A DNA stretch of 57,827 nucleotides. Origin: a virus. The DNA is taken from positions 1-57,827 of the IMG/VR virus record IMGVR_UViG_3300025536_000018; one strand, 5' to 3'. The notes under the pieces are model-generated. The model was not told the origin of the DNA, searched no databases, and was given only the letters and a program-made list of their open reading frames with translations. Below, piece by piece: positions 1 through 57,827 of this stretch (the stretch's first letter is position 1; the number at the start of each line of letters is the position of its first letter). The position numbers and the translations under genes were made by a program.

Positions 1-12
1 GCTCAGCGCCCC
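1..12. repeat. Left copy of 12-bp terminal direct repeat
   Basis: GCTCAGCGCCCC is identical to the last 12 bases of the window (57816-57827). This fits either a circular assembly with a short overlap or 12-nt cohesive ends, as in lambda-type phages with GpA/Nu1 terminases. Confidence 0.75.
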
Positions 13-282: not shown

Positions 283-379
283 CCCGGCCGCCCTGCCGAT
301 TCGCGGCCTAGCTCCAGGGGCAAGGGGCACAAAGAAAAACGCCCCGGCCATATCAGGCCAGGGCGCTAGGGTGCGACTC

Positions 380-392
380 GGAAGTTAGTTCT
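380..392. repeat. 13-bp palindrome site 1 (GGAAGTTAGTTCT)
   Basis: Member of the genome-wide GGAAGTNACTTCC family with two mismatches. It lies just beyond the 3' end of the leftmost gene, in non-coding DNA. Confidence 0.7.
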
Positions 393-398
393 ATGTGT

Positions 399-1187
399 CT
401 AGGGGTAGAGTAGCTTGACCGCCTCCAGGCCCGCCCGCTCCAGGTTCGTTAGGTCCGCCCTGCCGTCCAGGCTGGCCAGGGCCTCCCGCCATAGCTCCAG
501 GCGCTCCAGGCGTAGGGCCTCCCGTTCCTCCCGCTCCTTTGCCAGGCGGTCCCGCTCTATTGCCCGCTCCGCATCGCGTGCCGCCTCATCGGCCTTGCGC
601 TTGGCCAGGGCCGACTCCATCTCCGCAACCGTGGGAAGCTGGCCACGTTCAAAGGCCGTCCAGGCCGCCGCCGCCATGGCTTCCTTAGCCGTGAAATGCA
701 CGGGCCAGAATATCACGCGACTCGGTTCGCTATGCCCGCCGTTAAGCCACCGCTTAGCCTCAAACGAGTCCACCCGACTCCCGGATATGCAAGGCCCGTT
801 TTCATAGTAGCTATGCCGTTCCTCTGGACCCTTCAGGCGGTAGAGCTTCCAATGCGTGCCCCAACCCGAATCGCAAGACACATAGCCCCGCAATTCGCCG
901 TCAATCATCACGTCATAGCTAGAGCGCTGATAGGCGTTTATCGGCTCCGCCCGCTTCGCCAGGTCCAGGCGCGGCAACGTGGCGAGCTTCGCCTTGCCTA
1001 TGGCTTGCGCGCATTTAGGGCACGTCGCCAGGCGCGGGGAATCGAACGGCGCGGCCCGGTCATGTAAGCGCGACTCGCCGCACCACGATTCGGCCATGCC
1101 GCGCCCCGGATCATCCGCAAAGGGGTATTGATCCGGACTCCATCGCCGGAAGGCGCAAACCTTATGAACGCCGCGACTCCTGCCCAT
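399..1187 (-). CDS. Hypothetical protein with Cys-rich N-terminus and charged C-terminal helix
   Basis: 262 residues, family not recognised. The start chosen is the ATG at 1187, which shares its A with the TAA stop of the upstream gene (TAATG), a coupling seen four times in this arm; a longer frame from 1250 would overlap the neighbour more. The N-terminal third has a zinc-ribbon-like pair (a WCGES region and CPKC). The C-terminal 80 residues are rich in Arg, Glu and Ala and should form a long charged helix or coiled coil. It is the last gene of the leftward left-arm operon. Unusual base use (many GAGTC/GACTC) is shared with the whole arm. Confidence 0.75.
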   Translation of the reverse strand: MGRSRGVHKVCAFRRWSPDQYPFADDPGRGMAESWCGESRLHDRAAPFDSPRLATCPKCAQAIGKAKLATLPRLDLAKRAEPINAYQRSSYDVMIDGELRGYVSCDSGWGTHWKLYRLKGPEERHSYYENGPCISGSRVDSFEAKRWLNGGHSEPSRVIFWPVHFTAKEAMAAAAWTAFERGQLPTVAEMESALAKRKADEAARDAERAIERDRLAKEREEREALRLERLELWREALASLDGRADLTNLERAGLEAVKLLYP

Positions 1188-1639
1188 TAGACCGACTCGC
1201 CGATGATATGGGGGCCGCCCTCCAGGCCGGAATAAAGCGCCGTTTGCCACGGGATCGAATAGAAGCGGAAAGCGCCCGCCGTGCCCACGGCCTCAAATAT
1301 CGCCGCGTGCTGGCAATCGCCCGTTTCCTGATATCCGACAAGCCGGAAGCCGTGCAAGGCGGCCACCTTATCGGCCACCGGCTCCAGGCGCTTCCTATAT
1401 CGCTTGTCAGTGAGGAGTCGCACGCCGGAAGCGTGCAAATCGCCCCGCACTAGCGGCTTGTGGCGCTCCAGGGCGTCCAGGGCGGCCCGCACTTCGTCCG
1501 CCGTGGCGGCGCACCTGTTGCCGCTCCAGCCCCGCGCTAGGCGGGTGACGTGATTCAGGGCCTTGCGGAGTCCTATCACGTTCGTTTTTGTGACGTTGCC
1601 CGACTCAATCGCGGCAAGGTGACGTTGCATTGCGTTCAT
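1187..1639 (-). CDS. Hypothetical protein
   Basis: 150 residues, not recognised. ATG at 1639 follows the arm's standard leader (GCTTTCAAAGGAGCGAATC), which supplies the AGGAG ribosome binding site. The protein is basic in its first half and ends in an aromatic, mixed alpha/beta-looking stretch. The stop overlaps the next start (TAATG), so translation of the two genes is probably coupled. Soluble and cytoplasmic by composition. Confidence 0.8.
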   Translation of the reverse strand: MNAMQRHLAAIESGNVTKTNVIGLRKALNHVTRLARGWSGNRCAATADEVRAALDALERHKPLVRGDLHASGVRLLTDKRYRKRLEPVADKVAALHGFRLVGYQETGDCQHAAIFEAVGTAGAFRFYSIPWQTALYSGLEGGPHIIGESV

Positions 1640-1670
1640 TTGATTCGCTCCTTTGAAAGCGGGTTAAAGT

Positions 1671-1865
1671 TCAATTGTCGCCAGGGCGATTCGTGCCGCC
1701 GATGAACCGGCCCGCGCCGCCCTGAAGGCGAGTCGCGGCGATATCGTCCCGGCGTTGCGATTCCGCACATTCGCGCTTGATCCGGCTCCACAGTGTCGCG
1801 CCGCCGATGATAGCGGCGAAGGTGACGAGTCCGACAAGGGCGGCGATAAGGTCAGGTCCAAACAT
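1671..1865 (-). CDS. Small single-pass membrane protein
   Basis: 64 residues. Start is the ATG at 1865 preceded by GGAGTGATTCGA; an in-frame GTG three codons upstream lies inside the ribosome binding site and is less likely. Residues 4-25 form one hydrophobic helix (LIAALVGLVTFAAIIGGATL), followed by a basic cytoplasmic-looking tail. No family recognised. It is preceded by a putative promoter overlapping an operator-like palindrome at 1897-1933. Confidence 0.75.
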   Translation of the reverse strand: MFGPDLIAALVGLVTFAAIIGGATLWSRIKRECAESQRRDDIAATRLQGGAGRFIGGTNRPGDN

Positions 1866-1896
1866 TCGAATCACTCCGTTCCGTTGTTACTCACTC

Positions 1897-1933
1897 CGTA
1901 TAGCGGAGAAAGTCCTAACAGGAAGTTAATTCC
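1897..1933 (-). promoter_or_regulatory. Putative leftward promoter overlapped by palindrome site 2
   Basis: On the minus strand a -10-like TATACG (1897-1902) sits 18 bp after the palindrome GGAATTAACTTCC (1921-1933), so the palindrome covers the -35 position. The 9-mer TCCGCTATA at the -10 is repeated exactly in the promoter at 2446-2482, which has the same spacing. This argues that the pair is a real promoter plus operator class. Confidence 0.55.
1921..1933. repeat. 13-bp palindrome site 2 (GGAAGTTAATTCC)
   Basis: One mismatch in the core. It lies just upstream of the stop end of the 1926-2408 gene and at the -35 position of the putative promoter for the gene at 1671-1865. Confidence 0.8.
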
Positions 1934-2408
1934 GGCCGATTATCTCCGCCCCGGCAAGGTTGCCCTCCCGGCCGTCCGCCACCCGATAGCCCCGGATCAT
2001 AAGGAAGCCGGAGTCCACTTCATAACCAGTGACGCAACAAACGACTCCGCCGATTGCCCGCACTTCCTGCCCTACCGTGGGCACGGGTTGCTTACCGCTC
2101 CACACTGGCCAGCCGCCACGGTTCGCCAGGCGCTTGCCTTTCCACTTCGCTTTGACGTGGGGCGGGATCAAGCCGCGCCGGATATCGGCCGCCACCTTTG
2201 CCGCCCGCTCCGCTTTGACATACTCCCGCAACTTGCGAGTCGCGTTAGGGCCGTGGAAGGCGACAACGTGGCCCGTTGCCGGGTTGAACCGATAGAAGCG
2301 GGAAAGGTGCGCCGCATCGCCGCACTTGATCCACTGGCCAGGCTGGAGCTTTGCGCGGGCGCTATCGTCCAGGGTCCAGATATCAGGGGCAGGGGTAAAC
2401 TTAGCCAT
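1926..2408 (-). CDS. Hypothetical protein
   Basis: 160 residues, not recognised. ATG at 2408 follows GCTTTCAACGGAGCGACTC, the shared left-arm leader. The protein is basic in the middle (around residues 60-95) and ends with a Gly- and Val-rich beta-looking region. The last codons fall inside palindrome site 2, so stop region and operator overlap. Confidence 0.8.
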   Translation of the reverse strand: MAKFTPAPDIWTLDDSARAKLQPGQWIKCGDAAHLSRFYRFNPATGHVVAFHGPNATRKLREYVKAERAAKVAADIRRGLIPPHVKAKWKGKRLANRGGWPVWSGKQPVPTVGQEVRAIGGVVCCVTGYEVDSGFLMIRGYRVADGREGNLAGAEIIGRN

Positions 2409-2445
2409 TGTGAGTCGCTCCGTTGAAAGCGTTTCCGATAGACCT

Positions 2446-2482
2446 TCTATAGCGGATGATTCGTTAATAGGAAGTTACTTCC
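2446..2482 (-). promoter_or_regulatory. Putative leftward promoter overlapped by palindrome site 3
   Basis: Minus-strand TATAGA (-10, 2446-2451) lies 18 bp after a perfect GGAAGTAACTTCC (2470-2482), the same geometry and same TCCGCTATA word as the promoter at 1897. It would drive the gene ending at 1926. A bound protein would occlude the -35. Confidence 0.55.
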
Positions 2483-2640
2483 GCCGCCTTTCGATCATCC
2501 ACCGACTCGCGGTCCAGGTTGACATAATAGCGCCAGGCTCCGCCGCGCGACTGTTGCCGGAATAGTGCCGAATTAGCGAAGCCGCCCCGGTCATACCATT
2601 CCTTTTTAGTGATTCGCTCTTTCCGCACCTTTTGCGCCAT
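2464..2640 (-). CDS. Small basic hypothetical protein (58 aa)
   Basis: 58 residues from ATG at 2640 to TAA at 2464, with the leader ACTTTAGACGGAGTGCAAGACA in front. The sequence starts MAQKVRKERITKKEW and ends EVTSY; the final EVTS is encoded by the perfect palindrome at 2470-2482. Basic N-terminal half and aromatic centre (WRYYV). Not recognised; gene call rests on leader, start codon and position in the operon. Confidence 0.7.
   Translation of the reverse strand: MAQKVRKERITKKEWYDRGGFANSALFRQQSRGGAWRYYVNLDRESVDDRKAAEVTSY
2470..2482. repeat. 13-bp palindrome site 3 (perfect GGAAGTTACTTCC)
   Basis: Perfect copy at the 3' end of the 58-residue gene, encoding EVTS, and at the same time over the -35 position of the next promoter. 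Confidence 0.9.
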
Positions 2641-2667
2641 TGTCTTGCACTCCGTCTAAAGTGATTC

Positions 2668-2680
2668 GGAAGTTAGTTCC
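2668..2680. repeat. 13-bp palindrome site 4 (GGAAGTTAGTTCC)
   Basis: One core mismatch. It contains the TAA stop of the upstream gene (2673-2675) and lies 28 bp upstream of the next start. Confidence 0.85.
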
Positions 2681-2825
2681 GATATGCGCGGCCGTTCCGC
2701 CGCCGTTCAATCACGCCCGCCGCCTGTTTGCGGATGCGAGCGATTCGCTTGTGCTCTTCCCACGTCGCGACGTGCTGGCAATGGTTGCCGTCAAAATAGG
2801 CCGCCTCACTGTAGAGCATTTTCAT
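2673..2825 (-). CDS. Small hypothetical protein (50 aa)
   Basis: 50 residues from ATG at 2825 (GGAAGGGA just upstream; ATG at 2819 is an alternative) to a TAA inside palindrome site 4. Begins MKMLYSEAAYF; the second half is strongly basic (RRRNGRAYRN end). Its start overlaps the end of the upstream gene by 20 bp. Not recognised; could bind nucleic acid by charge alone. Confidence 0.65.
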   Translation of the reverse strand: MKMLYSEAAYFDGNHCQHVATWEEHKRIARIRKQAAGVIERRRNGRAYRN

Positions 2826-3057
2826 TCCCTTCCGTTGTCCGATGATTCGACACTAGGGCCGATTCGTTAACAACTGGTTTATAGTGGCGGCCTTGCATCC
2901 ATCCGGCGCAATAGACCGCAACCAGGGCGAAGGCGACGGCGTAGAGCAAGCAACCGCCGACTCCTTGCTTCCCCTGCCGTTTCTTCCGCTCTAGCGCTTC
3001 CTGTTGCTCCAGGGTGCGCCCCCACGGCAGAATCTCTAAGGGCTTATCGTCTTTCAT
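2806..3057 (-). CDS. Small single-pass membrane protein
   Basis: 83 residues from the ATG at 3057 (AAGG upstream), with an alternative ATG at 3087. A charged N-terminal half (GRTLEQQEALERKKRQGKQ) is followed by one hydrophobic helix near residues 42-60 (LLYAVAFALVAVYCAGW) and a short polar tail. The reading frame stays open upstream of the start, through a Cys-rich stretch (CSCGQC) to the TGA that ends the next gene, so the true N-terminus is uncertain. Confidence 0.7.
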   Translation of the reverse strand: MKDDKPLEILPWGRTLEQQEALERKKRQGKQGVGGCLLYAVAFALVAVYCAGWMQGRHYKPVVNESALVSNHRTTEGNENALQ

Positions 3058-3171
3058 GGCTTGGCCTTTCCCTTCCGTCCGGATCATGCCGCGCCCACAT
3101 TGCCCGCAAGAGCACGACTCGGCGTTCCAGGGCGTCCAGGGGCGGCCGTGGAGCCTCCAGGCGCTCCGCCC

Positions 3172-3426
3172 TCACTGTGGCCACCATTCGGGCCGCTCGC
3201 CTTCGTCCAGCCATGCCAGGCAATCGGCGGCCATGGCCACGGCGGCGGGGCCGTCATCATGTTCCGGCACGTCCGAGTCGATCAAGTCGCCCGACTCGTC
3301 ATACTCAAACCAATAGGCGCGAGTCGAACGAAGGCTAGAGCAAGGCCAGCCGCCGTTAAACAGGGCAACGCCGACTTGCGAGACTCGGACCTTGCGCGGC
3401 CCTACGGTGCTAAGGATATCAGACAT
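3172..3426 (-). CDS. Small acidic hypothetical protein
   Basis: 84 residues. ATG at 3426 overlaps the upstream TAA (TAATG); a GTG-type start at 3447 would lie deep in the neighbour and is rejected. Acidic, with a Trp-rich C-terminus (EWWPQ). After its TGA (3172-3174) the same frame continues open into the membrane-protein gene, raising the possibility of readthrough or a sequence error. Confidence 0.75.
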   Translation of the reverse strand: MSDILSTVGPRKVRVSQVGVALFNGGWPCSSLRSTRAYWFEYDESGDLIDSDVPEHDDGPAAVAMAADCLAWLDEGERPEWWPQ

Positions 3427-4055
3427 TAGGCGGATTCCTTCCCGCAAATATAGGTTTGCCCGTCATCGCCTAGATATGCCTCCAGGCTATGCCGCGACTC
3501 CACTAGGTCGCTAAGCGCTTCGCCGATTGCGCGATTCTCTTCCCGGTCATCGCTCCAGGAGTCCCGGTCCCGGAAGCCCGCGCCGTGGCCCGCCCGCTCT
3601 AGGTAAAGGTCGCTTCCCATTTGCTCCAGGGTGTAACGGTTCGCCAGGTCCAGGCCCGCTAAGGCCCCGTCAGGAACGGCCGCCAGGTGCGCCGCGATAG
3701 CCGCCAGGAACGACTCGCACTCCGCCACGGCCGCCCGAAAGGTGGAGTCGGGGCAATCGTAAATCGTGCCCGTGTCGCGAGCTTCCCGGCCTTCGCTAGT
3801 CGCTTCGTCCGACTCGCTATGCTGCAAGTCCTGAAGCAAGACGGCCAGGAACGACTCGGCCATAGGGCACGCCCGAAAGGCGGCCTTGCGCTCCCGTTCC
3901 CGGTTGTCAGTTTCCAGGGCGGCGCGGGCGGCCTTCAGGGCTTCCACCTTGTCCGCCACAATCGGCGAGTCCCGGCGCTCCAGGCCGTCCGCTTGCACGA
4001 AGCAAGGCCGATAGCCGCCGCCCGTCTTTTCGGTCCAATAGGTTTGCACGGCCAT
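3426..4055 (-). CDS. Hypothetical protein
   Basis: 209 residues, acidic, not recognised. ATG at 4055 overlaps the upstream stop (TAATG) and its own TAA overlaps the next ATG in the same way, so three genes are translationally chained here. Begins MAVQTYWTEKTGGGYRP; mostly helical by composition and Asp/Glu-rich toward the end. Confidence 0.8.
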   Translation of the reverse strand: MAVQTYWTEKTGGGYRPCFVQADGLERRDSPIVADKVEALKAARAALETDNRERERKAAFRACPMAESFLAVLLQDLQHSESDEATSEGREARDTGTIYDCPDSTFRAAVAECESFLAAIAAHLAAVPDGALAGLDLANRYTLEQMGSDLYLERAGHGAGFRDRDSWSDDREENRAIGEALSDLVESRHSLEAYLGDDGQTYICGKESA

Positions 4056-4519
4056 TATTCCGACTCCTCTTCGTCATAGTCGCCAGCCGTCAAAGCCGCC
4101 GCCAGCGTGGCCAGTTCCGCGCGTAGCTCTTCGCGTTGCTCTTCGTAAACTTCGCGAAGGTAAGCGCCGGAGTCCGACTCGATTCCCCAAAGGCCCGCGC
4201 TCCGTAGCTCCAGGATTCGGAAAGACTGGCCACCGGCCGGGATAAAGACAACCGCCCGCGCCACGACTCCGACATATTGCCAGGCGTCACCTAGCCACCT
4301 GTTATAGCGGAGCCGCGCCTTTTGCGTTTCCCGCTTCAGGTCCGCCGCCGTCTTGCCTTCGCCGATGAATCCCGCGTCTTGCGGATCAAGCGAAGGCCAA
4401 TAGCCGTCTTGCATTTGATCCGGGGCGCTTGCGTGATTGTCGCGGGGCGTTTCCATTGTCCAGGATATCGCCAGGCGTTGCGGCCGGGTGGCCGAGTCGA
4501 TCATGTTAAATTGCGTCAT
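4055..4519 (-). CDS. Hypothetical protein
   Basis: 154 residues, not recognised. ATG at 4519 follows the shared leader GCTTTAGACGGAGCGAATC, the clearest copy in the arm. Starts MTQFNMIDSATRPQRLAIS; ends in an acidic run (DYDEEESE). First gene of a TAATG-coupled trio running to 3172. Confidence 0.8.
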   Translation of the reverse strand: MTQFNMIDSATRPQRLAISWTMETPRDNHASAPDQMQDGYWPSLDPQDAGFIGEGKTAADLKRETQKARLRYNRWLGDAWQYVGVVARAVVFIPAGGQSFRILELRSAGLWGIESDSGAYLREVYEEQREELRAELATLAAALTAGDYDEEESE

Positions 4520-4572
4520 TTGATTCGCTCCGTCTAAAGCGTTGCCGATAGGCCCTTGATAGGGGGCAACCG

Positions 4573-4800
4573 TTAACAGGAAGTTACTTCCGCCGTAAAA
4601 ATATACACCGGGGCGCTAGGCTCCGTCGCGGCCAGGCCCGCCTGGTTCCACCTGTTGACTAGCTCCAGGAAGTCCAGGCGGCCGCCCGTCCGATTGCCGC
4701 CGCCTAGTTGCATGGCGACTCGCACCGGGTCCAGGCTAAGCGATTCGACGTGGCGGGAGCCGTCAGGCCGAATCGCGGTGCGGGTGTAACGGTGCGCCAT
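4573..4800 (-). CDS. Small hypothetical protein
   Basis: 75 residues, coupled by TAATG to the gene upstream. The C-terminus AEVTSC is encoded by a perfect palindrome copy (4579-4591). Gly-rich middle (LGGGNRTGGR). Not recognised. Confidence 0.75.
   Translation of the reverse strand: MAHRYTRTAIRPDGSRHVESLSLDPVRVAMQLGGGNRTGGRLDFLELVNRWNQAGLAATEPSAPVYIFTAEVTSC
4579..4591. repeat. 13-bp palindrome site 5 (perfect)
   Basis: Perfect GGAAGTTACTTCC at the 3' end of the 75-residue gene (encodes EVTS), about 60 bp upstream of the next leftward start at 4519. Confidence 0.9.
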
Positions 4801-5669
4801 TAGGCGAAGTCCGCCGCATCGCCCGCCGCGTCCAGTTCATCCCGGCCGCCATAGCGAGTCGCGTTATAGAGCTTCCAGGCCGAGTCCTTGTCCAGTTCCG
4901 CCGACTCCTTGCCGTCTTCCAGGCGGATGATTCGGCCGGTCATGGCATTGGAGTCGAACTTGAACCGATAGCGCGGGCGCGGGCCGTGCATTTGCTCCGC
5001 CACGTTTTCCAGGCGCAACCCGGAGTCGGTCCAGTCAATCGACTCGTCATCGGCCACGGCGTCCGCCATGATCGAATATTGAAAGTGCGCCGAGTCGCGG
5101 TCTCCGCTTCCCCATTTTGTCACAGTGTCGAAAGCCGCGCCGAGTCGGTTATTCTGGCGAAAGTCTCCGCTGATATACCGTTGCCCCTCCAGGCGGCGAC
5201 TCTGCCCGCGCGGGTTTGCCACGAAGGCGGCGGCATACTGGCCAAAGCCGCGCCCGCCGTAACCTTCGTGCTCCAGTTCCGCGCGGATCATGCAAATATC
5301 ATCGCCGAGTCGGGTGAAAAAGGCCAGGTAAACGGTAGGGCCGAATCCTTCGCCTTGCGACACGTCCAGCTTAGCGAAGTAAGGGCCGCCTTTTAGCTCG
5401 CCTTCGTCTTTGCCCACGTTGAGCGCGGCCGGGACAAAGCGGGTGTAAGTGCCCTTGAATTGATAGAAGGCAATCGGCTGGAACTTGCGCGCCAGGTCCA
5501 GGGCTTCCCATAGGTTCGCCACGCGGTAGCTAATCCAATGGCCGAGTCCCGCGCTTGTCAGTTGCACGGAACGGGGCGGCACGGGTGCGAGCGTTGCTAG
5601 GGCGTGCTCGCGCTCCAGCTTCGCCAGGTCCGCCGCTTGCTTGGCCTTCATTTCTTCTAGGGTCATCAT
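4800..5669 (-). CDS. Hypothetical protein, first gene of the left-arm operon
   Basis: 289 residues, not recognised. ATG at 5669 follows GCTTTAGACGGAGTGATTCGCA (ribosome binding site GGAG); a second ATG follows directly. The N-terminal 25 residues form a charged helix (LEEMKAKQAADLAKLEREHA). The rest looks like a globular mixed fold, with many aromatic residues and no Cys pair. It is the promoter-proximal gene of the leftward arm, reading from the putative promoter at 5709-5737, so it is probably expressed early and strongly. Confidence 0.8.
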   Translation of the reverse strand: MMTLEEMKAKQAADLAKLEREHALATLAPVPPRSVQLTSAGLGHWISYRVANLWEALDLARKFQPIAFYQFKGTYTRFVPAALNVGKDEGELKGGPYFAKLDVSQGEGFGPTVYLAFFTRLGDDICMIRAELEHEGYGGRGFGQYAAAFVANPRGQSRRLEGQRYISGDFRQNNRLGAAFDTVTKWGSGDRDSAHFQYSIMADAVADDESIDWTDSGLRLENVAEQMHGPRPRYRFKFDSNAMTGRIIRLEDGKESAELDKDSAWKLYNATRYGGRDELDAAGDAADFA

Positions 5670-5708
5670 TGCGAATCACTCCGTCTAAAGCGTCATTGCT
5701 ATGCGAAG

Positions 5709-5737
5709 TGATTAGCCCCGGAAGTCCTAACAATCAA
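5709..5737 (-). promoter_or_regulatory. Putative leftward promoter of the left arm
   Basis: Minus strand: -35 TTGATT (5732-5737), 17-bp spacer, -10 TAATCA (5709-5714), 40 bp before the ATG at 5669. A palindrome (5746-5758) lies 8 bp upstream of the -35, an activator-like position. Confidence 0.6.
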
Positions 5738-5745
5738 TTAAAATC

Positions 5746-5758
5746 GGAAGCAACTTCC
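5746..5758. repeat. 13-bp palindrome site 6 (GGAAGCAACTTCC)
   Basis: One core mismatch. Non-coding, immediately upstream of the -35 of the leftward promoter. Confidence 0.85.
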
Positions 5759-5830
5759 GGCCGCCGTCCAGGCGCTCCAGGCTCCAGGCTCCAGAGAATA
5801 GAATCGCGCGGCGCGCATAGGCGCGGCCGG

Positions 5831-5897
5831 GTTAACGAGTCACCCCACAAAAATGGTTAACGCGATTTTCATCATTAACGCGGCGGTAAGGTTAACG
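5831..5897. repeat. Cluster of four GTTAACG-type repeats
   Basis: GTTAACG at 5831-5837, 5856-5862 and 5891-5897, and ATTAACG at 5874-5880, all in the same orientation with spacings of 25, 18 and 17 bp. Possible operator or iteron array in the divergent control region. Confidence 0.6.
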
Positions 5898-6046
5898 CAA
5901 AACTTTTGCCCTCCGATCCAGCCGAGTCCCATTCTGGCACACCCGAATCGCCAACCCCCCTGTAGTGGTAATTCTGGAATAAAAACCAGTCCGCCCCACG
6001 GCCACGGCGCTGACGTTTGGCGGCTCTCCGAGGGTATGCGGTCTGG

Positions 6047-6075
6047 TTGACAATTTTTCCAGCCGCGTTTATACG
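6047..6075 (+). promoter_or_regulatory. Strong putative rightward early promoter
   Basis: TTGACA (6047-6052), 17-bp spacer, TATACG (6070-6075), 40 bp upstream of the GTG at 6115. Best sigma70-like match in the window; would drive the early operon. Confidence 0.75.
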
Positions 6076-6114
6076 AACCACATAACCGATTCCCACCAAG
6101 AAGGAGAAAGCCCC

Positions 6115-6961: not shown

Positions 6962-7139
6962 AGGCGAGCGCCGGAAGAAGATCGCCGACGCTTACGTCAG
7001 CTTGCCGCACTACGGACAGAAGACCGAACAGTGCATCGCCTTCGTCAAGGGCACATGCCGTTGCCGCAACATCTACCACTTCCTCGATTCCGCCAAGGAC
7101 TCGAATGTCGAACGCCTCGAAAGGATGCTCTTCTCATGA
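6954..7139 (+). CDS. Small hypothetical protein with Cys triplet
   Basis: 61 residues; ATG at 6954 overlaps the upstream stop by 8 bp. Contains a CRCR cluster and an upstream Cys (QCIAFVKGTCRC), so metal binding is possible. Its stop shares bases with the next ATG (ATGA). Confidence 0.75.
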   Translation: MVEGERRKKIADAYVSLPHYGQKTEQCIAFVKGTCRCRNIYHFLDSAKDSNVERLERMLFS

Positions 7140-8598: not shown

Positions 8599-9272
8599 CC
8601 AGTGCCTCGATTCACACCATCAACCGGGCCGAGTTCAAACATTGCACACCTGACGGCGACAAGCTGATTGCCGAGATCGCGCGTGTCAGCAACCCGGCCA
8701 ATGAGAAGAACGAAGAGACCGCCCCGCGCCTCATCCGCTTCCTCATCGACAACAACCACTGGTCGCCGTTCCAGATGTGCTCCATGGCTATCGAAGTGAA
8801 CACCACGCGCGACATCGGCCGCCAGATTCTCCGGCACCTGTCCGCCATCGGCTACCAGGAGTTCTCCGGCCGATATGCCGCCTACAACGAATTGCTCGGC
8901 TTCCGGGAGTGCCGGTTCCAGCATCCCACGAACCGCCAGCTTTCGGTTGAGCCGTCCACTCCGGAGCAACTGGATATCGTCACCGAATGGAACGAATACA
9001 TAGCAGAGAGGGCGCAACGAGATGAACGCGAATATCGGTATTGGCTGGATCGCGGCGTGGCTAAGGAGTGCGCCCGCGCGATCCTCCCTGAAGGCTTGGT
9101 GCCGACGCGCATGTATCTCCACTATTCGGTTCGGACGTGGTTGCATTACATCGCCGAGCGCCAGAAGGCGGGCGTCCAGAAGGAGCACCGGGTCATCGCC
9201 CACCGATGCCGGGAAATCCTCTACGACCACTTCCCGATGACAGCGGAGGCGTTCTTCTATGCGGATATTTGA
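8595..9272 (+). CDS. thyX: Flavin-dependent thymidylate synthase ThyX
   Basis: 225 residues, normal for ThyX. It methylates dUMP to dTMP using methylene-tetrahydrofolate, FAD and NADPH, supplying dTTP for phage replication. Visible signatures: N-terminal ARVSNP, the NNHWSPF segment, and the ThyX motif region RHLSAIGYQEFSGRY (about residues 75-90), a divergent form of RHRxxSxNExSxRY with one extra residue and Gln for Asn. The C-terminal half keeps the Arg/His-rich LHYSVRTWLHY pattern. ATG at 8595 overlaps the preceding stop. A phage-borne dTMP source fits the early operon. Confidence 0.92.
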   Translation: MTSASIHTINRAEFKHCTPDGDKLIAEIARVSNPANEKNEETAPRLIRFLIDNNHWSPFQMCSMAIEVNTTRDIGRQILRHLSAIGYQEFSGRYAAYNELLGFRECRFQHPTNRQLSVEPSTPEQLDIVTEWNEYIAERAQRDEREYRYWLDRGVAKECARAILPEGLVPTRMYLHYSVRTWLHYIAERQKAGVQKEHRVIAHRCREILYDHFPMTAEAFFYADI

Positions 9273-14479: not shown

Positions 14480-15676
14480 ATGGAAAAGCTGACTCTGCCG
14501 AAGGCCAAGTTCGCCCACGAACTCACGGCCGCCCCCGTCGATCCGACCATGAAGGCCGCCGAAGCGACCAGCGCCAAGCTGTATCGCGTCCCGGTCTCCA
14601 AGATCAAGGTCATCCCCGGCTTCAACGTCCGCGTGCAGTCGCCCGACTACATCGCCCACCGTGACGCCATCCGCGCCAGCATCGCCAGCAACGGCTATGA
14701 CTCGACCAAGCCGCTCGCCGGTTACGTCGCGAAGGAAGGCGATGAGAACGTCATCTATGTCACGGACGGCCACACCCGACTGGACGCGGTGAACGAACAC
14801 AACGCCGATCCCGACACGGCCGAGAAGGATGAGATCAACACCTTGCCGGTGATGGTCCAGCCGAAGGAAGTGTCGCTCACCGACCTGACCGTCATGCTGC
14901 ACACCGCGAACAACGGTCGGCCGCTGACGCCGTTCGAGCTTGGCGTCGTCGTGAAGCGGCTCCTGGCCGAAGAAGGCGCGAAGAAGAGCGAGATCGCACA
15001 GCGGCTCGGCGTCACGTCGCGCTACCTGGACGATGTGCTCCTGCTTGCGAACGCTGATTCCAAGGTCAAGCAGCACGTCGCCAGCGGCGCGGTCTCCAGC
15101 ACCATGGCGATCCAGCTTATCCGCAAGGACGCCGACAGCGCCGCCGAGAAGATCGAAGCGGCCGTGAAGGCGACCGCTGGCACCGGCAAGAAGGCGACCA
15201 AGAAGCACGCCGGTCCCCGGATGCAGAAGATCAAGGTCGCCGTGCCGTTCACCGAAGACCAGGACATGAAGGAGATCGTGAAGGCCGCTGCCGCCGCGAT
15301 CCGCGAAGCCGTCCCGGCCGTCGAAGGCGAGGAAGACGCGAAGCTGGCTGGCGTCAGCGGCACCGTCAACCTGGTGATCGAAGTGCCCGCACCGGAGAAG
15401 CCGAAGCCCGCGAAGAAGGCTCCGGCGAAGAAGGCCGCCGCCAAGCCCGCCAAGGCCGCCAAGGCGACCGACGCGGAGCCGGAGGCGAAGCCCGCCAAGA
15501 AGGCCGCGACGAAGAAGGCCGCTGCCGCCAAGCCCGCGAAGAAGGGCAAGGCCGCCAAGGCTGACATCGGCGTCGAAGGCGCGGAAGCGGTCGGCGAGGA
15601 CGATGAAGTCGCGATCCTGCCGCCGAAGGTCGTGTCGGACGCGGATGTCCCCGACGACGAAGAAGTGGACATCTAA
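14480..15676 (+). CDS. Orphan ParB/KorB-like DNA-binding protein
   Basis: 398 residues. An N-terminal ParB/Spo0J-type domain (about residues 30-140) includes the typical VTDGHTRLDAV box near 94-104. A helix-turn-helix follows at about 166-187 (KKSEIAQRLGVTSRYLDDVL), the DNA-binding part of ParB and KorB. The C-terminal 130 residues are Lys/Ala/Pro-rich repeats (KKAPAKKAAA type), then an acidic tail ending DDEEVDI. No ParA gene was found. ParB proteins bind short inverted repeats and spread; KorB of RK2 binds scattered 13-bp palindromes and represses transcription. It is the leading candidate to bind the 39 palindromes here; one lies upstream of its own promoter. Confidence 0.85.
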   Translation: MEKLTLPKAKFAHELTAAPVDPTMKAAEATSAKLYRVPVSKIKVIPGFNVRVQSPDYIAHRDAIRASIASNGYDSTKPLAGYVAKEGDENVIYVTDGHTRLDAVNEHNADPDTAEKDEINTLPVMVQPKEVSLTDLTVMLHTANNGRPLTPFELGVVVKRLLAEEGAKKSEIAQRLGVTSRYLDDVLLLANADSKVKQHVASGAVSSTMAIQLIRKDADSAAEKIEAAVKATAGTGKKATKKHAGPRMQKIKVAVPFTEDQDMKEIVKAAAAAIREAVPAVEGEEDAKLAGVSGTVNLVIEVPAPEKPKPAKKAPAKKAAAKPAKAAKATDAEPEAKPAKKAATKKAAAAKPAKKGKAAKADIGVEGAEAVGEDDEVAILPPKVVSDADVPDDEEVDI

Positions 15677-45486: not shown

Positions 45487-45829
45487 ACTTCTTTCGGATC
45501 ACGCGGGCGGCGAACTCCGGATAGACGACTTTGTAACCGCCAGGATCGAGTCGAACTAACTTCCGATATCCGGCCACGCTATCGGTCCACCATGCTTCGA
45601 CACCCGCGTTCCGCATCTCCCATATCCGGAGGAACTGTTGTGCGCTCGGCTTGCGTCCTGGAACCTTGAACTCGATATGGATGGCACCGCCGCTCACCTT
45701 CTCGGCGAACGTGTCGGGGAAGCCGTTGATCGACTTGCCTTCGACTTGCCAGAAGATGAGATCGTTCGGGCGCGCGTGGTCGTCCCGGCACTCATCCTTT
45801 ATCGCGCCTTCAGGTTGCCGCCGTCCCAT
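45467..45829 (-). CDS. VRR-NUC domain nuclease
   Basis: 120 residues from ATG at 45829. The core IHIEFKVPGRKPSAQQF has the VRR-NUC (PD-(D/E)XK) catalytic pattern with E-x-K and a conserved Gln; D/N residues upstream (NDLIFW, NGFPDTF) complete it. Such stand-alone domains in phages probably resolve branched DNA. Gene order helicase-VRR-NUC-methylase-polymerase is common in siphoviruses. Palindrome site 31 is read as KLVR. Confidence 0.85.
   Translation of the reverse strand: MGRRQPEGAIKDECRDDHARPNDLIFWQVEGKSINGFPDTFAEKVSGGAIHIEFKVPGRKPSAQQFLRIWEMRNAGVEAWWTDSVAGYRKLVRLDPGGYKVVYPEFAARVIRKKYGADAC
45552..45564. repeat. 13-bp palindrome site 31 (CGAACTAACTTCC)
   Basis: One core mismatch; in the VRR-NUC gene, read as KLVR. 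Confidence 0.72.
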
Positions 45830-46719
45830 GCCGCCATCGCCTTTGCCAGTTCGTCCAGTTCGCCTTCGAGCACTTGCATCGCGGGCTTCAGGCCCGTTCC
45901 GCCGTAGCCGGGATACTTGCGGCGGATCAAAGGCTCCGCCACGCACATCCGCTCGGCTATCGGCAGCGCGGCGTTCTCACCTGACCAGATGTTCCACATG
46001 CAATCCATGAGCGGACTGTTCCCGCGTTCCTTCGCCAGGAAGGCGAGCCGCCACGTCAGCTTCAACTCCAGGTCGGGCATGTGATCCAGCCACAGTCCCG
46101 CGCTTCGGCCGCCCACGTTCCAGTAGGTTTGCTTCAGAAGCATGGCGACGTTCGGCGTGAACAGAAGCGAGCGCCGGATGAACTCTTCGGCCAGGCTGAA
46201 GGGCGGGTTGGTCACGATGGCGTCGATGTCGCCGATCTCCCATCCCCACTTCGCCTTCGGGTGCTCTGCGAGAAAGTCCAGGCCGCCATAGCCGTAGCCA
46301 GGATACTCGCGGAGATCGGTGGCGATCACTTCAAAGCCGTGCCATTCGAGCACGCGAGCGAGGCGACCATCGCCGCACGCCGGTTCCCATATCCGCTTGA
46401 TCGGCGAGCCGTCCGGACGCTTCATCGCCTTCAGCGCGGGGATGAGGCTTTCGGTGCCGTCCACGGGCGTCGGATATAGATCGGCTGGCTTGCGCTCCCA
46501 CTTCTTGTAGGACGTGATGATCGCGTCGGCGATGCTCTGCCCCTTTGCGGTGTGCGGGATCGCTTCGATGATGTCGGAAATAACTTCCGGCTCCTTCAAG
46601 CCCTGGTCCCGCGCCGCCTGGCGGAAGCGCGGTTCATCGGTCACATCGGAAGCGAAAGGGTCCGAACAGAACTCATCCCAAAACAGGGATTCAGAGTCGG
46701 CGTCGAAGTAAAGTCTCAT
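45799..46719 (-). CDS. DNA N6-adenine methyltransferase-like protein
   Basis: 306 residues from ATG at 46719 (GGAAGG upstream). SAM-binding motif WEPACGDGRLARVL and the catalytic NPPF typical of adenine/cytosine-N4 methyltransferases. C-terminal part (MQVLEGELDELAK) may be a recognition region. Target unknown. A GANTC-like specificity would be notable given the left-arm GANTC enrichment, but nothing in the sequence shows specificity. Palindrome site 32 is read as EVIS. Confidence 0.85.
   Translation of the reverse strand: MRLYFDADSESLFWDEFCSDPFASDVTDEPRFRQAARDQGLKEPEVISDIIEAIPHTAKGQSIADAIITSYKKWERKPADLYPTPVDGTESLIPALKAMKRPDGSPIKRIWEPACGDGRLARVLEWHGFEVIATDLREYPGYGYGGLDFLAEHPKAKWGWEIGDIDAIVTNPPFSLAEEFIRRSLLFTPNVAMLLKQTYWNVGGRSAGLWLDHMPDLELKLTWRLAFLAKERGNSPLMDCMWNIWSGENAALPIAERMCVAEPLIRRKYPGYGGTGLKPAMQVLEGELDELAKAMAAWDGGNLKAR
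46576..46588. repeat. 13-bp palindrome site 32 (GGAAATAACTTCC)
   Basis: One core mismatch; in the methyltransferase gene, read as EVIS. Confidence 0.78.
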
Positions 46720-46721
46720 CG

Positions 46722-48887
46722 TCAGTCCTTCCGGTATATCTTGGTTGTCATGCCAGCGGCGTTGAGCGGCATATCGACGCCGCCTTTCCGCATCCACTTC
46801 TTCTTGCGGATCATCTCCACCCGCATGTTCTCATGAGTATGTTCGTTGTCGTTGACGGCTTCCTCCGAGATCGCTTCGTCGTGGACGTGGCCGATCAAGT
46901 AAAAGCCCGCCTTGTGGAGCGCGAGCATCCCTTCGCGGAGCACGTCGCGCGCAATCGCCTGGACGATGTTTTCGATGAACTTGCCGCCGTGGCTGTTGAT
47001 CCGGAGCCACTTCGAGCCGTTCTGTTGCTTCCCCATGTAGGAGATGCTGTCTTTCCAATAGACGTATCGCTCGCCGGTCTCCTTGTCGATCCCCTCCATC
47101 TTCTCGCGACGGATGCGAGGATTCTTGTAGAAGATGCACCGGCCGGAAGGAAGTTCGCACACCAGGTAGGGCTTCGCCATGTAGAAGCGAACCGGGCCGA
47201 CGCGGCGGGTGCCTCCCCGCTTGATGACGCTCTTGATCGCGTCTTCCAGGTCATACCAGCATTGCGGGATTTCCTTATAGACGCGCCGGAAGGTCGCCAC
47301 GTTTTTGTGCGCCTCCTTGCGGCTCATCTCGACGCCCATGTTCTCGGCGTAGCCCCACAGGCCGGTCTTCTTGCCGTCCTTGATGTCGCCGCCGCCCAAG
47401 CGGTAGCCCGCGCCGAGCGTGGCGGGCTTCGCCATCTTCCGCATCTGCTTGGTGACTTCTTCGTAGAGCACCTTGTAGAGTTCGGTCGCGAAATCCTTGT
47501 AGGCGTCCTTGCCCTCGCGGAAGACGTTGAGCAATCGTTCGCAGCGGGCAACCCATCCGATCACCACCGATTCGATGGAGGACAGGTCGCACACTACCAG
47601 CTTCTTGTTCTTCGGCGCTCGCACGGAAGATCGCACCAAACCGGCCAGGGCGTCGAGCGGTTCCTTGCGATAAATCTGCAACGACTCGTAGTCGTTCTGA
47701 CGGATCACGTCCGTCATCTGTTCGAGTATCTTTTCCGACTCGATGTCTCGCATCATCGTCAGGTTTTGCGGCTGAAACCGGCGACCGGCGAAGCGGCCGG
47801 TGCGGCTGGCACCACAGAACTGGAAGACGTAGCGCATCCGGCCGTCCGTCCCCATAGCTGTAAGGAGCGCCTGGTATTTGCTGGTGCTGGTGCGCGCCTG
47901 TTGCTGCCGGAGCTTCAGCACCGCGACGGCGCGCTTCGTCAGCGTGTCCGGATAGAGTTCGTCCTTCTCCTTCTTCAACTCGCCAGTCTGGATTCCCTTC
48001 CAGGCGGTCAGCACCTTCTTGACCGAATCCTTCTGGAGATCGTTGAACGGATAGCCGCGTGCCTGGAGCCACGGCAATAGCTGTGCGGGCGATCCGGGAT
48101 TAGCCAGGCCGGTCTTCTGCCGCATCCGCTCCAGGAGTTCGTCCTTGCGGAGATTGGCCATGGCCAGGGCGTTTTCCGCGAAGATGCGGTCAATAGGCAA
48201 GCCCCGGTCGTTGATTATCTGGTCGAGCGCGTAGAACTCCCACTCGCGCGCCGGGATCGGATACTTCGGCTTGTCGAGAAGACGCTTGATCTCGCACTCG
48301 GCTTCCACGTCTCGGATGTTGTATTCGATGAACATGCGCCATTCGACCGGGTGCGTCTCGGCCGTGAAGCGTCGGTGCGGCTGGTTCGCCGTCACCCGTT
48401 GCGGCATGGAGAACAGCTTCATGAGCCGCTTGCCTGTGTCGAGCTTGATCTTATCTTGCTCGATTCCCATCTGCCGCGCGATCATGCCGAGATCGCCGGT
48501 AAAGCTGTGCATGTATGCCAGGACCATCGTGCAGCGCCACCGCTCCATGCGCGGATGGATGTTGAGCACGCGGTTCATGATGACGCGCTCGAATTGCGCG
48601 TTGAACGCCCATATCAGGGTGTTGTCATCGTCCAGGGCTTGCCGGAGCTTCTTCGGCATCGGCTCATTGGTGGCGTCCCAATGGCGAACGGGGCCATCGT
48701 CCAAGCGCCAAGCGCACATGAGCACTTCGCATGACGGATGGCTAGAATATAGATCGAGTCCGAACTTGCGAAGGTCGATGTCGCAATAGGTTTCAAAGTC
48801 GATTGATAGGGCGCGCGGGACCACTTCGTCGTCAGGGATATCCCAACGTCCGAACCGTTCTTCGAGTTGTCCGCGTCTAAGTGCCAC
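46722..48887 (-). CDS. DNA polymerase, family A
   Basis: 721 residues. 3'-5' exonuclease motif SIDFETYCDIDL with D30 and E32; polymerase motif A CDLSSIES, a Lys-containing motif B region (AKPATLGAGYRLGG), and motif C HVHDEA. Replicates the phage genome. GTG start at 48887: the only ribosome binding site is GGAAG within perfect palindrome site 33, so expression of the replicase is probably tied to occupancy of that site. A minus-strand TATTAT (48945-48950) could be a -10 but has no good -35. Confidence 0.93.
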   Translation of the reverse strand: MALRRGQLEERFGRWDIPDDEVVPRALSIDFETYCDIDLRKFGLDLYSSHPSCEVLMCAWRLDDGPVRHWDATNEPMPKKLRQALDDDNTLIWAFNAQFERVIMNRVLNIHPRMERWRCTMVLAYMHSFTGDLGMIARQMGIEQDKIKLDTGKRLMKLFSMPQRVTANQPHRRFTAETHPVEWRMFIEYNIRDVEAECEIKRLLDKPKYPIPAREWEFYALDQIINDRGLPIDRIFAENALAMANLRKDELLERMRQKTGLANPGSPAQLLPWLQARGYPFNDLQKDSVKKVLTAWKGIQTGELKKEKDELYPDTLTKRAVAVLKLRQQQARTSTSKYQALLTAMGTDGRMRYVFQFCGASRTGRFAGRRFQPQNLTMMRDIESEKILEQMTDVIRQNDYESLQIYRKEPLDALAGLVRSSVRAPKNKKLVVCDLSSIESVVIGWVARCERLLNVFREGKDAYKDFATELYKVLYEEVTKQMRKMAKPATLGAGYRLGGGDIKDGKKTGLWGYAENMGVEMSRKEAHKNVATFRRVYKEIPQCWYDLEDAIKSVIKRGGTRRVGPVRFYMAKPYLVCELPSGRCIFYKNPRIRREKMEGIDKETGERYVYWKDSISYMGKQQNGSKWLRINSHGGKFIENIVQAIARDVLREGMLALHKAGFYLIGHVHDEAISEEAVNDNEHTHENMRVEMIRKKKWMRKGGVDMPLNAAGMTTKIYRKD

Positions 48888-52382: not shown

Positions 52383-52453
52383 CCGGAAATATATCTTGCG
52401 TTAACCCTGTGTCTTCGGGCATAGCCACCGGGGACCGTATCAGGCGAGGCACC

Positions 52454-52741: not shown

Positions 52742-55210
52742 GTGCCAACCAAGTATCTACAAAAATATGCGCTGCGAGTAGTCGAAAACGGATACGACAT
52801 CTGTTTCATTCGGCCGGGAGAGAAGCGCCCCTTCGGGAAAGATTGGGAGGCCAAGCGGCACGGCCCCAAGCGGATCGCATCGGCTATAGAGGCCGGTCGC
52901 GGTGACTTCGGCATAGGGATCAAAACGCGGGAGACGCCTGGCGTCGATATCGACTGCTACGACGAAGAGCTTGTCGATCACATGATCCGGGTCACGGGGG
53001 AACTGTGCGGCGAAACTCTCCAGCGCGTCGGCCTCGCCCCCAAGACGCTCCTGGTCTATCGCTCCGAAGACCCGTTCCCCAAGACGCAATCGAAGGTCTT
53101 CATTGACGACGAAGGCCGGTCGGTGAAGCTGGAAGTGTTGAGCGACGGCCAGCAATTCGTGGCGCTCCACATCCACCCTGACACGAACAAGCCCTATCGC
53201 TGGAAAGACAAGCGTTCCGTGCTCGACGTGGCGCAAGACGAACTGCCGGTGATCGAACATGACGATGCCCTGGAGATCGTCGCCGAGTTCGAGCGCCAGG
53301 CCCGCAAGCGCGGCTGGCAGGAGAAGAGCACCGTCAAGCGGCTAACCGATCAACGTAGCCGGGGCAAGGAATACAACTACGACGATCCCTTCATCTCGGA
53401 CAAGTCGAAGGTCGATCTCTCGCCGGAGCAATTGCTGAAGAAGCTCCACAGCGTCCCCAACGCTGACGACTATGACACCTGGTTCCATGTTGGCATGGCG
53501 CTCTACCACCAGTTTGACGGCTCCGATGAGGGCTTGATGATGTGGCATGAGTGGTCGGCGACCGCGCCGAACTACGACATGGACGCGCTGGATGAGAAGT
53601 GGCCGACCTTCGATGTCGAAGGCAAGAAGCGCGAGCCGATCACCGCTCGATTCATCCTGAAGCAAGCCGTCGCCGAGGAAGAGCGGCTGGCAGGAGAGGA
53701 ACTGGATGAGATCAAGGACGATATCCGTAATGCGGGCGACCACCGCGAGTTCCAGTCGGTGATGGACAAGATCAAGCACCTGGCCTTCTCGCCGATGATC
53801 CGAGAGTCCCTGGTCGTGATGCTGAAGGAGCGGATCAAGAAGGCGACGGACGTGATGATGCCGGTGACGATGATCCGTCGCGCCATTGCGTTCGAGAATC
53901 CGGAGCATCGGTCGACTCCCGCCTGGCTCCGCGATTGGGTCTTCATCCAACAGGACGAAACCTTCTATCACGTCAAAACCAGGCAAGTGCTGTCCACCAA
54001 GGCGTTCGATCTATCGTTCGGCCGGTTCCTCCTGACGAAGAAAGACATCCTGGAGGGCCTGTCCACGCCGGAGCACTCGGCCTCGCATGTCGCCGTTCAC
54101 CGCTACCAGATACCAGCCGTCGCGAACAAGATGTATGTGCCGTGGGAGGACCAGTTCTTCGACGCCAACAAGCTAAGCTATGTGAATAGCTACAGCGATG
54201 CGACCGTGCCGCACGACATCCCGGAGACGTTGAGCGCCAAGCAGCGCAAGCTGTGCGAGCGCGTGGAACGCCACCTGGAGCACCTATTCCGCAATGATCG
54301 CGACCGGAAGTTACTTCTTAGCTGGTTGGCCTACATCGTGCAGACTGGCGGCAAGGTGAACTGGTCTCCGGTCGTCCAGGGTGTCGAGAACGATGGCAAG
54401 AGCTTCTTCGGCCGCATGATGGCGGCGGTGATCGGCGGCGAGAACGTCAACGTCATCAACGGGGACGCCTTCAGCGAGCAATATACGCCGTGGGCGGAGG
54501 GTTGCCAGTTCCTCATGGTGGAGGAAGTCCGGTTGCACGGGCAGGATCGCTTCGCCGTAATCAACAAGGTGAAGCCCTACATCTCGAACGACATGGTTTC
54601 GATCCGCCGCATGAGGACGGACACCTACAAGGTCATCAACACCGTCAACTACTTCCTGACGACGAACCACAAAGACGGCGTGCCGGTCAACGAGAACTCG
54701 ACGCGCTACTTCCCGATGTTCTCGCGCTGGCAGACAAAGCGAGCGCTCGACAAGTTCAACGCGGCGAATCCGGACTACTATGTGAAGTTGCACGAAGTCT
54801 TGGACCACCCGGAAGTGTTGCGCCGCTGGCTCCTGGACTACGAGCTTCACGAAGAGTTCGATCCGATCACCCGCGCAACCGAAAGCTCCAGCCTCAACGA
54901 GATGCGGTATCTCAACCAAACCGAAGAGGAAGAGGGCCTGGCCGAGATACTGGACGGCAGCGACGATCCGGAGCTTTGCCGGGAACTGGTCAATTCGGCC
55001 AGGCTCGCCGACGCAATGCAGGACAAGGGCATCCCGGTCCCCTACGGGCAGGCGTGGAAGCGCTTGATGTCGGAGCGTGGCTTCACGCCGCTCGGCAAGG
55101 TCAAGGTCGGCGGGAAGTCGGCTACCTATTGGAGCCAGGAGCCGGATCAATTCATGATCGGCGACAAGACGGACACACAAGCGATCCGCGATTGGGTTGA
55201 GCCGATCTAA
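52742..55210 (+). CDS. Primase-helicase (Prim-Pol, PriCT-2, D5/DUF5906)
   Basis: 822 residues from GTG at 52742 with GGAGTGATTCGC upstream, the leader used in the left arm. Domains: bifunctional primase/polymerase (about 20-200) with GVDIDCYD acidic motif; PriCT-2 (about 235-310, PNADDYDTWFHVGMALYHQF); superfamily 3-like helicase with Walker A GVENDGKS near 545-552, MVEEV Walker B and FLTTNHKDGVPV sensor. It would prime and unwind phage DNA. Palindrome site 37 is read as KLLL. Confidence 0.9.
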   Translation: MPTKYLQKYALRVVENGYDICFIRPGEKRPFGKDWEAKRHGPKRIASAIEAGRGDFGIGIKTRETPGVDIDCYDEELVDHMIRVTGELCGETLQRVGLAPKTLLVYRSEDPFPKTQSKVFIDDEGRSVKLEVLSDGQQFVALHIHPDTNKPYRWKDKRSVLDVAQDELPVIEHDDALEIVAEFERQARKRGWQEKSTVKRLTDQRSRGKEYNYDDPFISDKSKVDLSPEQLLKKLHSVPNADDYDTWFHVGMALYHQFDGSDEGLMMWHEWSATAPNYDMDALDEKWPTFDVEGKKREPITARFILKQAVAEEERLAGEELDEIKDDIRNAGDHREFQSVMDKIKHLAFSPMIRESLVVMLKERIKKATDVMMPVTMIRRAIAFENPEHRSTPAWLRDWVFIQQDETFYHVKTRQVLSTKAFDLSFGRFLLTKKDILEGLSTPEHSASHVAVHRYQIPAVANKMYVPWEDQFFDANKLSYVNSYSDATVPHDIPETLSAKQRKLCERVERHLEHLFRNDRDRKLLLSWLAYIVQTGGKVNWSPVVQGVENDGKSFFGRMMAAVIGGENVNVINGDAFSEQYTPWAEGCQFLMVEEVRLHGQDRFAVINKVKPYISNDMVSIRRMRTDTYKVINTVNYFLTTNHKDGVPVNENSTRYFPMFSRWQTKRALDKFNAANPDYYVKLHEVLDHPEVLRRWLLDYELHEEFDPITRATESSSLNEMRYLNQTEEEEGLAEILDGSDDPELCRELVNSARLADAMQDKGIPVPYGQAWKRLMSERGFTPLGKVKVGGKSATYWSQEPDQFMIGDKTDTQAIRDWVEPI
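54306..54318. repeat. 13-bp palindrome site 37 (GGAAGTTACTTCT)
   Basis: Core intact; in the primase-helicase gene, read as KLLL. Confidence 0.86.
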
Positions 55211-57815: not shown

Positions 57816-57827
57816 GCTCAGCGCCCC
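57816..57827. repeat. Right copy of 12-bp terminal direct repeat
   Basis: GCTCAGCGCCCC, identical to bases 1-12. Confidence 0.75.

Follow-up and report, generated by a model that had tools for sequence, protein, structure and literature searches.

The DNA studied here is virus record IMGVR_UViG_3300025536_000018 of the IMG/VR database, and the window which we analysed is the entire record of 57,827 bases. It is a complete genome with 12-nt cos ends, from a relative of the Casjensviridae (Nazgul-like). At its left end, adjoining cos, all twelve leftward open reading frames (ORFs) of the original prediction are present in one block; they code for proteins of 50–289 amino acids and diverge from the remaining early genes. 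We will call this block the arm. It is a coherent unit and by synteny corresponds to a cos-proximal block which is found throughout the family; in the relatives examined its genes are annotated as hypothetical nearly throughout. The left arms of BcepNazgul, AH2, Chi-like YSD1, Sphingomonas phage Carli and Erythrobacter phage R22L also lie beside cos, point towards it, diverge from rightward early genes and contain small, mostly hypothetical genes. However, gene content is almost wholly different among these arms, and only the alphaproteobacterial members share the most unusual property of the window arm: saturation with a single five-letter word, GASTC (GACTC or GAGTC). The original prediction had missed this property. 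It described shared leaders and coupled starts, which are ordinary features of phage operons; the saturation is not ordinary.

There are 51 GASTC sites in the saturated zone. Up to position 5,940 their density is 8.6 per kb; in the rest of the window it is 1.2 per kb. This change point (log-likelihood gain 46) falls within the divergent intergenic region; an equivalent boundary at the divergent region is found in R22L, R16L, Carli and the related contig L011. When codons are shuffled with protein and codon usage fixed, the arm keeps a GASTC excess with z 9.9–11. A shuffle which also fixes the dinucleotides at codon junctions gives 15.6 expected sites, against 46 coding sites found (z 13.5), and no excess in the core genes of the window (z −0.8). 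By the same junction-preserving shuffle R22L has 74 sites for 18.6 expected (z 18.7), followed by contig L013 (z 8.5), L011 (z 7.7), RcCWillis (z 7.1) and Carli (z 5.1). When the arms of five alphaproteobacterium-type phages are pooled under the codon shuffle, GASTC ranks first of all 512 pentamers, with a combined z of 20.6; the next ones are words which overlap it, at 10.6. The ranking is similar in most arms under a maximal-order Markov model, with Carli the weakest.

The word also shapes the proteins of the arm. In one of its frames GASTC codes for Asp/Glu-Ser; the window arm has 34 of these dipeptides for 12.8 expected, and the reversed dipeptides are 12, as expected. The figures are 53 for 20.8 expected in R22L (reversed, 19) and 22 for 11.9 in Carli (reversed, 9). 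Sites are found on both strands, and in some phages the coding strand favours GAGTC. In homologous arm genes they are mostly non-coincident, and it is therefore the density which is kept, not fixed positions. Very probably this excess is caused by selection at the DNA level. Avoidance of restriction sites does not agree with the data, as the arm is enriched above random expectation. In the literature searched we have found no report of clusters of methylase sites in phage early regions, nor of GASTC saturation.

The saturation might also be a by-product, if the arm were a hot spot of newly acquired orphan genes whose source pool had a composition and a mutation pattern of its own and was relaxed in codon choice. 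The arm does differ from the core in codon use and in many words: TTT, TAT and CTA are more frequent, AGAT and GAGA are depleted, and CTAG is found at 9.7 times the core level, mostly through codon choice (z 1.4 after the codon shuffle). The arms of all relatives differ in composition from their cores. However, GASTC is extreme with codons and junction dinucleotides fixed, and in most arms under the Markov model as well; the dipeptide distortion goes in one direction, and the word is common to unrelated genes of several lineages. We consider a by-product unlikely. Another word in excess in the window, CCWGG, is not specific to the arm but genome-wide (core z 8.5).

The GASTC excess is found in the arms of all nine alphaproteobacterium-type relatives tested: L011 (the same contig as L044), L013, L045, L046, R22L, R16L, Carli, RcCWillis and RcAqua. 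It is absent from the 16 arms examined of other family members. RcCWillis is, like RcAqua, a Rhodobacter phage, and its primase has 24% identity over part of its length; with a relative so distant, the trait spans two host orders. Contig L043, which has a relative of the arm gene g4, shows a mild rise in GASTC at most. A further group of contigs (L014–L022 and L047–L052), linked to the window only through ThyX or a 120-residue domain of the gene at 7136 and unplaced as to family and hosts, has no block in the stretches examined.

As the best overall explanation we propose, tentatively and with somewhat less than even confidence, that the arm is a cos-proximal early operon tuned to host methylation through GASTC. 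Leftward transcription would start from the divergent region, at 5.7–6.1 kb, and stop at the terminator before cos, with re-starts at the repeated leaders and TAATG coupling along the arm. Selection at the DNA level would act on the whole arm for many copies of GACTC and GAGTC. The reader would be the CcrM methylation system of the host, which acts on GANTC, perhaps with GcrA, a methyl-dependent partner of sigma-70. Methylated sites on the incoming DNA may recruit host transcription to the early arm or keep it there; the mark would be lost as the phage genome replicates, and the arm would be turned down. CcrM or GcrA is the most likely reader of the word, at a confidence also short of even. 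A switch of the arm coupled to replication seems unlikely.

GASTC is half of the CcrM site, GANTC. As a class, GANTC is found 76 times in the window arm for 17.5 expected from the core; the codon shuffle gives 66 for 29 expected (z 11.9). CcrM and GcrA occur in most Alphaproteobacteria (PMC2877005), and in Sphingomonadales GANTC is present in all putative ctrA promoters (PMC8116508). Methylated GANTC is read by GcrA (PMC3667746), which binds it with the consensus YGAKTCK (PMC7987155). GANTC is under-used in the coding regions of the hosts (PMC3973325); its use in the arm is the reverse.

A parallel is found in relatives with other hosts. The arms of several enterobacterial and Aeromonas relatives have an excess of GATC instead, with z 9.1 in JS26, 7.0 in Erwinia 08, 4.3 in YSD1 and 10.9 in A18P4 under the junction-preserving shuffle. 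GATC is first of the 16 four-base palindromes in six of nine arms (JS26, YSD1, Soft, A18P4, Erwinia 08 and SLP22) of phages whose hosts we take to be Dam+, and in none of seven on other hosts (Nazgul, AH2, Suzuki, AXY1, FoX4, UF_RH7 and SS2019XI); related phages are not independent in these counts. CGSCG and GCGC also score high in the arms tested for GATC. The parallel is no more than suggestive; it fits a general link to solitary methylases of the host. We might then suppose that early arms of Casjensviridae are written in the words of these methyltransferases (GASTC/GANTC where the host is an alphaproteobacterium, GATC and CCWGG for several hosts that are Dam+/Dcm+), altering proteins, marking the arm as virion-derived and not yet replicated, and setting the early-to-late switch. 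So wide a generalisation is rather improbable.

Some related observations concern other words. The arms of Erwinia 08 and A18P4 are also enriched in CCWGG with codons and junctions fixed. CCWGG is nearly absent from the sequences examined of Carli, R22L and R16L (none in the R22L stretches), whereas in the window phage it is over-represented along the whole genome; this points to hosts that differ in restriction or methylation of the Dcm type. The R22L arm is rich in CGATCG, with 32 copies for 14 expected (noted for L006:1–7600, from R22L, and L028:1–5700, from R16L). The R22L stretches also have 8 copies of GGCGATCGCC, which resembles the cyanobacterial HIP1 word.

Several observations weigh against tuning to host methylation. 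CcrM methylates all four forms of GANTC, but GAWTC is not generally enriched, and the reader may therefore be something else: with junctions preserved, GAWTC has z 4.1 in the window, about 0 in R22L, −3.5 in L013 and −2.6 in Carli. The sites are found throughout the coding sequence rather than at promoters. GcrA (PF07750) and the N6_N4 methylase family (PF01555) have no match in the phage genome, so that a phage-borne CcrM or GcrA is rejected. KcrB, RHph_Y52 and TRX32-1, which infect alphaproteobacterial hosts but belong to other families, have no such block, which rejects the idea that every phage on these hosts shows it, and Lacusarx has only a mild rise. The Dam parallel also fails in three phages, JC01, PM87 and Smarc1.

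The enrichment of most phages in GASTC, and not in all GANTC, would also fit a protein indifferent to methylation. Such a protein, from phage or host and of nucleoid, silencer or anti-silencer type, would coat the arm through GASTC, density being what matters and not position. The presence of sites on both strands, their turnover between homologues and the sharp edge at the divergent promoter region all agree with it. However, no such protein is known, and loose flanks leave just five specified bases. The word also recurs in the distantly related Rhodobacter phage, and a phage-specific binder would need to be shared across lineages; this recurrence therefore favours a host factor. We regard a binder of this kind as somewhat unlikely.

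The data on which the methylation model is based could also be read as a decoy, in which dense sites titrate CcrM, GcrA or a site-specific nuclease and disturb the cell cycle or defence of the host. Phage phiCbK has its own GcrA homologue, which has been speculated to stall the cell cycle (PMC7987155). However, the arm brings just 50–75 sites or so with each genome, whereas a host chromosome, for instance that of Brevundimonas subvibrioides, has about 3900 GANTC sites, and a decoy has no need to end at the divergent promoter. A decoy is quite improbable.

The features of the locus are collected in Table 1. The TAATG stop/start overlaps of the original prediction are present at 1187, 3426, 4055 and 4800. 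A candidate promoter facing right, TTGACA-17-TATACG at 6047–6075, was seen by eye in the divergent region; the pair is not listed by the promoter scan. GTTAACG, repeated in 5825–5900, recurs at 52399 (before the primase region), 4571 and 2865, and these may be regulator sites.

Table 1. Features of the left arm, the genome ends and the candidate palindrome-binding protein (positions in the window)
Feature	Position	Strand	Remarks
cos cohesive end, left	1–12		GCTCAGCGCCCC; identical 12-mer at both record ends
Terminator-like hairpin (intrinsic type)	338–367	−	closes the arm just before cos; 12 pairs, 9 G-C, then T-rich tail
GASTC-saturated zone	375–5940		
ORF g12	399–1187	−	262 amino acids; CxxC motif; 33% identity with an ORF of Carli that lies outside its arm
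ORF g11	1187–1639	−	150 amino acids; 51% identity with an arm gene of Carli; coupled to g12 through TAATG
Leader, before 1639	1642–1660	−	3 mismatches
ORF g10	1671–1865	−	64 amino acids; N-terminal hydrophobic segment by eye; relative in L011
Leader, 3' half only, before g10 (1865)	1866–1878	−	ACGGAGTGATTCG
ORF g9	1926–2408	−	160 amino acids; phrog_21585 (E 1e-10); relatives in Carli arm and TRX32-1 early region
Leader, before 2408	2412–2430	−	2 mismatches
ORF g8	2464–2640	−	58 amino acids; relatives in L011, L013 and R22L arms
Leader, before 2640	2644–2662	−	4 mismatches
ORF g7	2673–2825	−	50 amino acids; relatives in L011, L013 and Carli arms
ORF g6	2806–3057	−	83 amino acids; hydrophobic segment by eye; L011 copy 78% identical
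ORF g5	3172–3426	−	84 amino acids; orphan
ORF g4	3426–4055	−	209 amino acids; phrog_1915 (E 3e-13); relatives in Carli arm, Lacusarx right end, large Klebsiella phages and L043
ORF g3	4055–4519	−	154 amino acids; orphan
Leader, before 4519	4522–4540	−	0 mismatches
ORF g2	4573–4800	−	75 amino acids; no relative among the loci compared
13-bp palindrome, exact	4579–4591		GGAAGTNACTTCC
Other arm copies of the palindrome	2470; 1921, 2668, 5746; 380		exact; 1 mismatch; 2 mismatches
ORF g1	4800–5669	−	289 amino acids; first arm gene; orphan
Leader, before 5669	5673–5691	−	0 mismatches; leader sequence GCTTTAGACGGAGYGANTC
Divergent intergenic region	5670–6114		GTTAACG at 5831, 5856 and 5891
ParB/KorB-like protein	14480–15676	+	candidate palindrome binder; HTH_ParB E 2.5e-5, KorB E 7e-5
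cos cohesive end, right	57816–57827		exact repeat of 1–12

A leader had been proposed at six starts. Five copies stand each at a start codon of the arm, with 0–4 mismatches out of 19; the sixth start, 1865, has the 3' half only. The repetition is not due to chance, because nowhere else in the 57.8-kb window is there a match with 4 mismatches or fewer. A related leader had also been proposed before the primase at 52742. That site has 5 mismatches, and there are 8 such sites for about 7.6 expected, which is the chance level; we do not accept it as the same element. A 12-mer before 52742, GGAGTGATTCGC, is identical to the 12-mer at 5682. The arm leaders of L011, the closest relative, have a different but likewise repeated sequence, with the pattern CTTT..AAC..AGGAGTC; the leader of the window is therefore lineage-specific. 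The idea of one control scheme holds for about half of the genes, which share the leader; it does not extend to all of them, and the palindromes upstream are genome-wide.

These palindromes are found upstream of the leaders of five arm genes. GGAAGTNACTTCC occurs for example at 2470, 4579, 6292, 23941, 27746, 34316, 36917, 48889 and 57759; as it is spread over the whole genome, it is not specific to the arm. Its 11-bp core, GAAGTNACTTC, has 23 exact copies in the genome for about 0.03 expected. The full palindrome is also present in R22L, R16L, L011 and L013, and Nazgul has the core. In Carli the repeated palindrome is GGAAATNATTTCC instead, and the ParB-like protein is 39.5% identical to that of the window. 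AH2 and SS2019XI have an annotated ParB-like protein, yet no such palindrome. The remaining relatives, some of them scanned only in part, have no comparable palindrome, save for a rarer one in RcCWillis. Judging from this incomplete co-variation, the ParB/KorB-like protein probably binds the palindromes. The arrangement recalls the KorB/O_B system of IncP plasmids, in which a ParB-family protein goes with 13-bp palindromes upstream of many transcription units. However, the palindrome of the phage is different.

Ten arm proteins were scanned against Pfam and PHROGs; g2 and g6 were outside these scans. None of the ten has a Pfam match above threshold. The earlier statement that no product is recognised must be qualified for g4 and g9, which match PHROG families of unknown function. 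A search of viral_contigs gave no relatives for g1 and none for g11, and the closest relatives have just a few arm genes in common with the window. In the T7-like Rhizobium phage TRX32-1, a relative of g9 lies in the block which directly precedes the RNA polymerase gene, where phages of that group have their host-transcribed early genes. In Sphingobium phage Lacusarx, a relative of g4 belongs to a block of small rightward genes at the right end. These placements support an early, host-directed role for the arm, as far as position can tell, and it is likely that its genes are small, fast-changing genes of host interaction.

The original prediction took the arm for a locus of host takeover or anti-defence, with one control scheme for all its genes. 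This does not conflict with the readings at the DNA level, and we give it an even chance. Its coherent leftward unit, early-type position and small orphan genes are borne out, its homologues lie in early-type regions elsewhere, and leaders are shared, five of them with ParB/KorB-type palindromes upstream. An early arm is plausible. Against the proposed function, Pfam and PHROGs give no known anti-defence homologue for the ten proteins, and the palindromes are genome-wide. Structure predictions were unusable for g1 (from a single sequence) and g4 (from two), with mean predicted local distance difference test (pLDDT) scores of 42 and 41. Homologues with known structural roles, which would speak for another function, were not found.

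The placement of the genome is based on its ends, its replication genes and its gene order. The related contig L008 terminates on the very same base as the window, and L011 and L013 have the identical 12-mer GCTCAGCGCCCC at the start of their arm. The annotated cos of BcepNazgul (GCTCTGCGCCCT) and of Klebsiella phage Soft (GCTCTGCGCACC) each differ from it in 2 of 12 bases; the AH2 record begins with GCTCAGCGCCCT. The primase-polymerase at 52742 is 55% identical to that of R22L, 47% to Carli, 41% to AH2 and 38% to BcepNazgul; for the helicase the values are 57, 46, 45 and 50%. The map of ORFs, compared with the annotation of relatives, has the order of Casjensviridae: leftward arm, rightward small genes, leftward structural block and primase near the right end. 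The nearest relatives with known hosts infect Sphingomonadales, and the host of the window phage is probably an alphaproteobacterium of that order. In the non-coding stretch which separates cos from the arm terminator, imperfect direct repeats of short length are present at 205–285 (CTAGGCGGATCATCGGGCTAGGTGGATCATCGC, in two exact copies). A ThyX-type thymidylate synthase gene (PF02511, E 4e-33) lies at 8601–9272, among the early genes which run rightward. The ORF at 45799–46797 has the same position as an R22L gene annotated as an S-adenosylmethionine-dependent methyltransferase; it has no Pfam methylase match, the best one being Glyco_transf_34 (E 0.003).

Other systems have comparable words. 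HIP1 (GCGATCGC) of cyanobacteria and the DNA uptake sequences of Neisseria and Haemophilus are short words repeated far beyond chance through coding DNA and, like GASTC, able to shape proteins. However, the phage word has five bases and is confined to one arm, the core genes of the phage showing no excess of it. The GANTC sites of CcrM/GcrA regulation include GASTC, but host sites are under-used in coding DNA and act at promoters, whereas those of the phage fill coding DNA and prefer GASTC over GAWTC. In the pac site of phage P1, Dam GATC sites are also clustered at the packaging end of the genome; the cluster spans about 160 bp there and about 5.6 kb of genes here.

Descriptions of phage early regions mostly proceed one gene at a time. 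In this phage the entire arm is under a constraint at the DNA level which is strong enough to bias its proteins, is sharply bounded by the divergent promoter region and is common to phages of Sphingomonadales and Rhodobacterales. If the host methylation system does read the word, the phage would have a simple means to tell incoming from replicated DNA, and the arm would let one ask why host methylases matter to phages. If another protein is the reader, the arm would still be a 5.6-kb bait for finding it.

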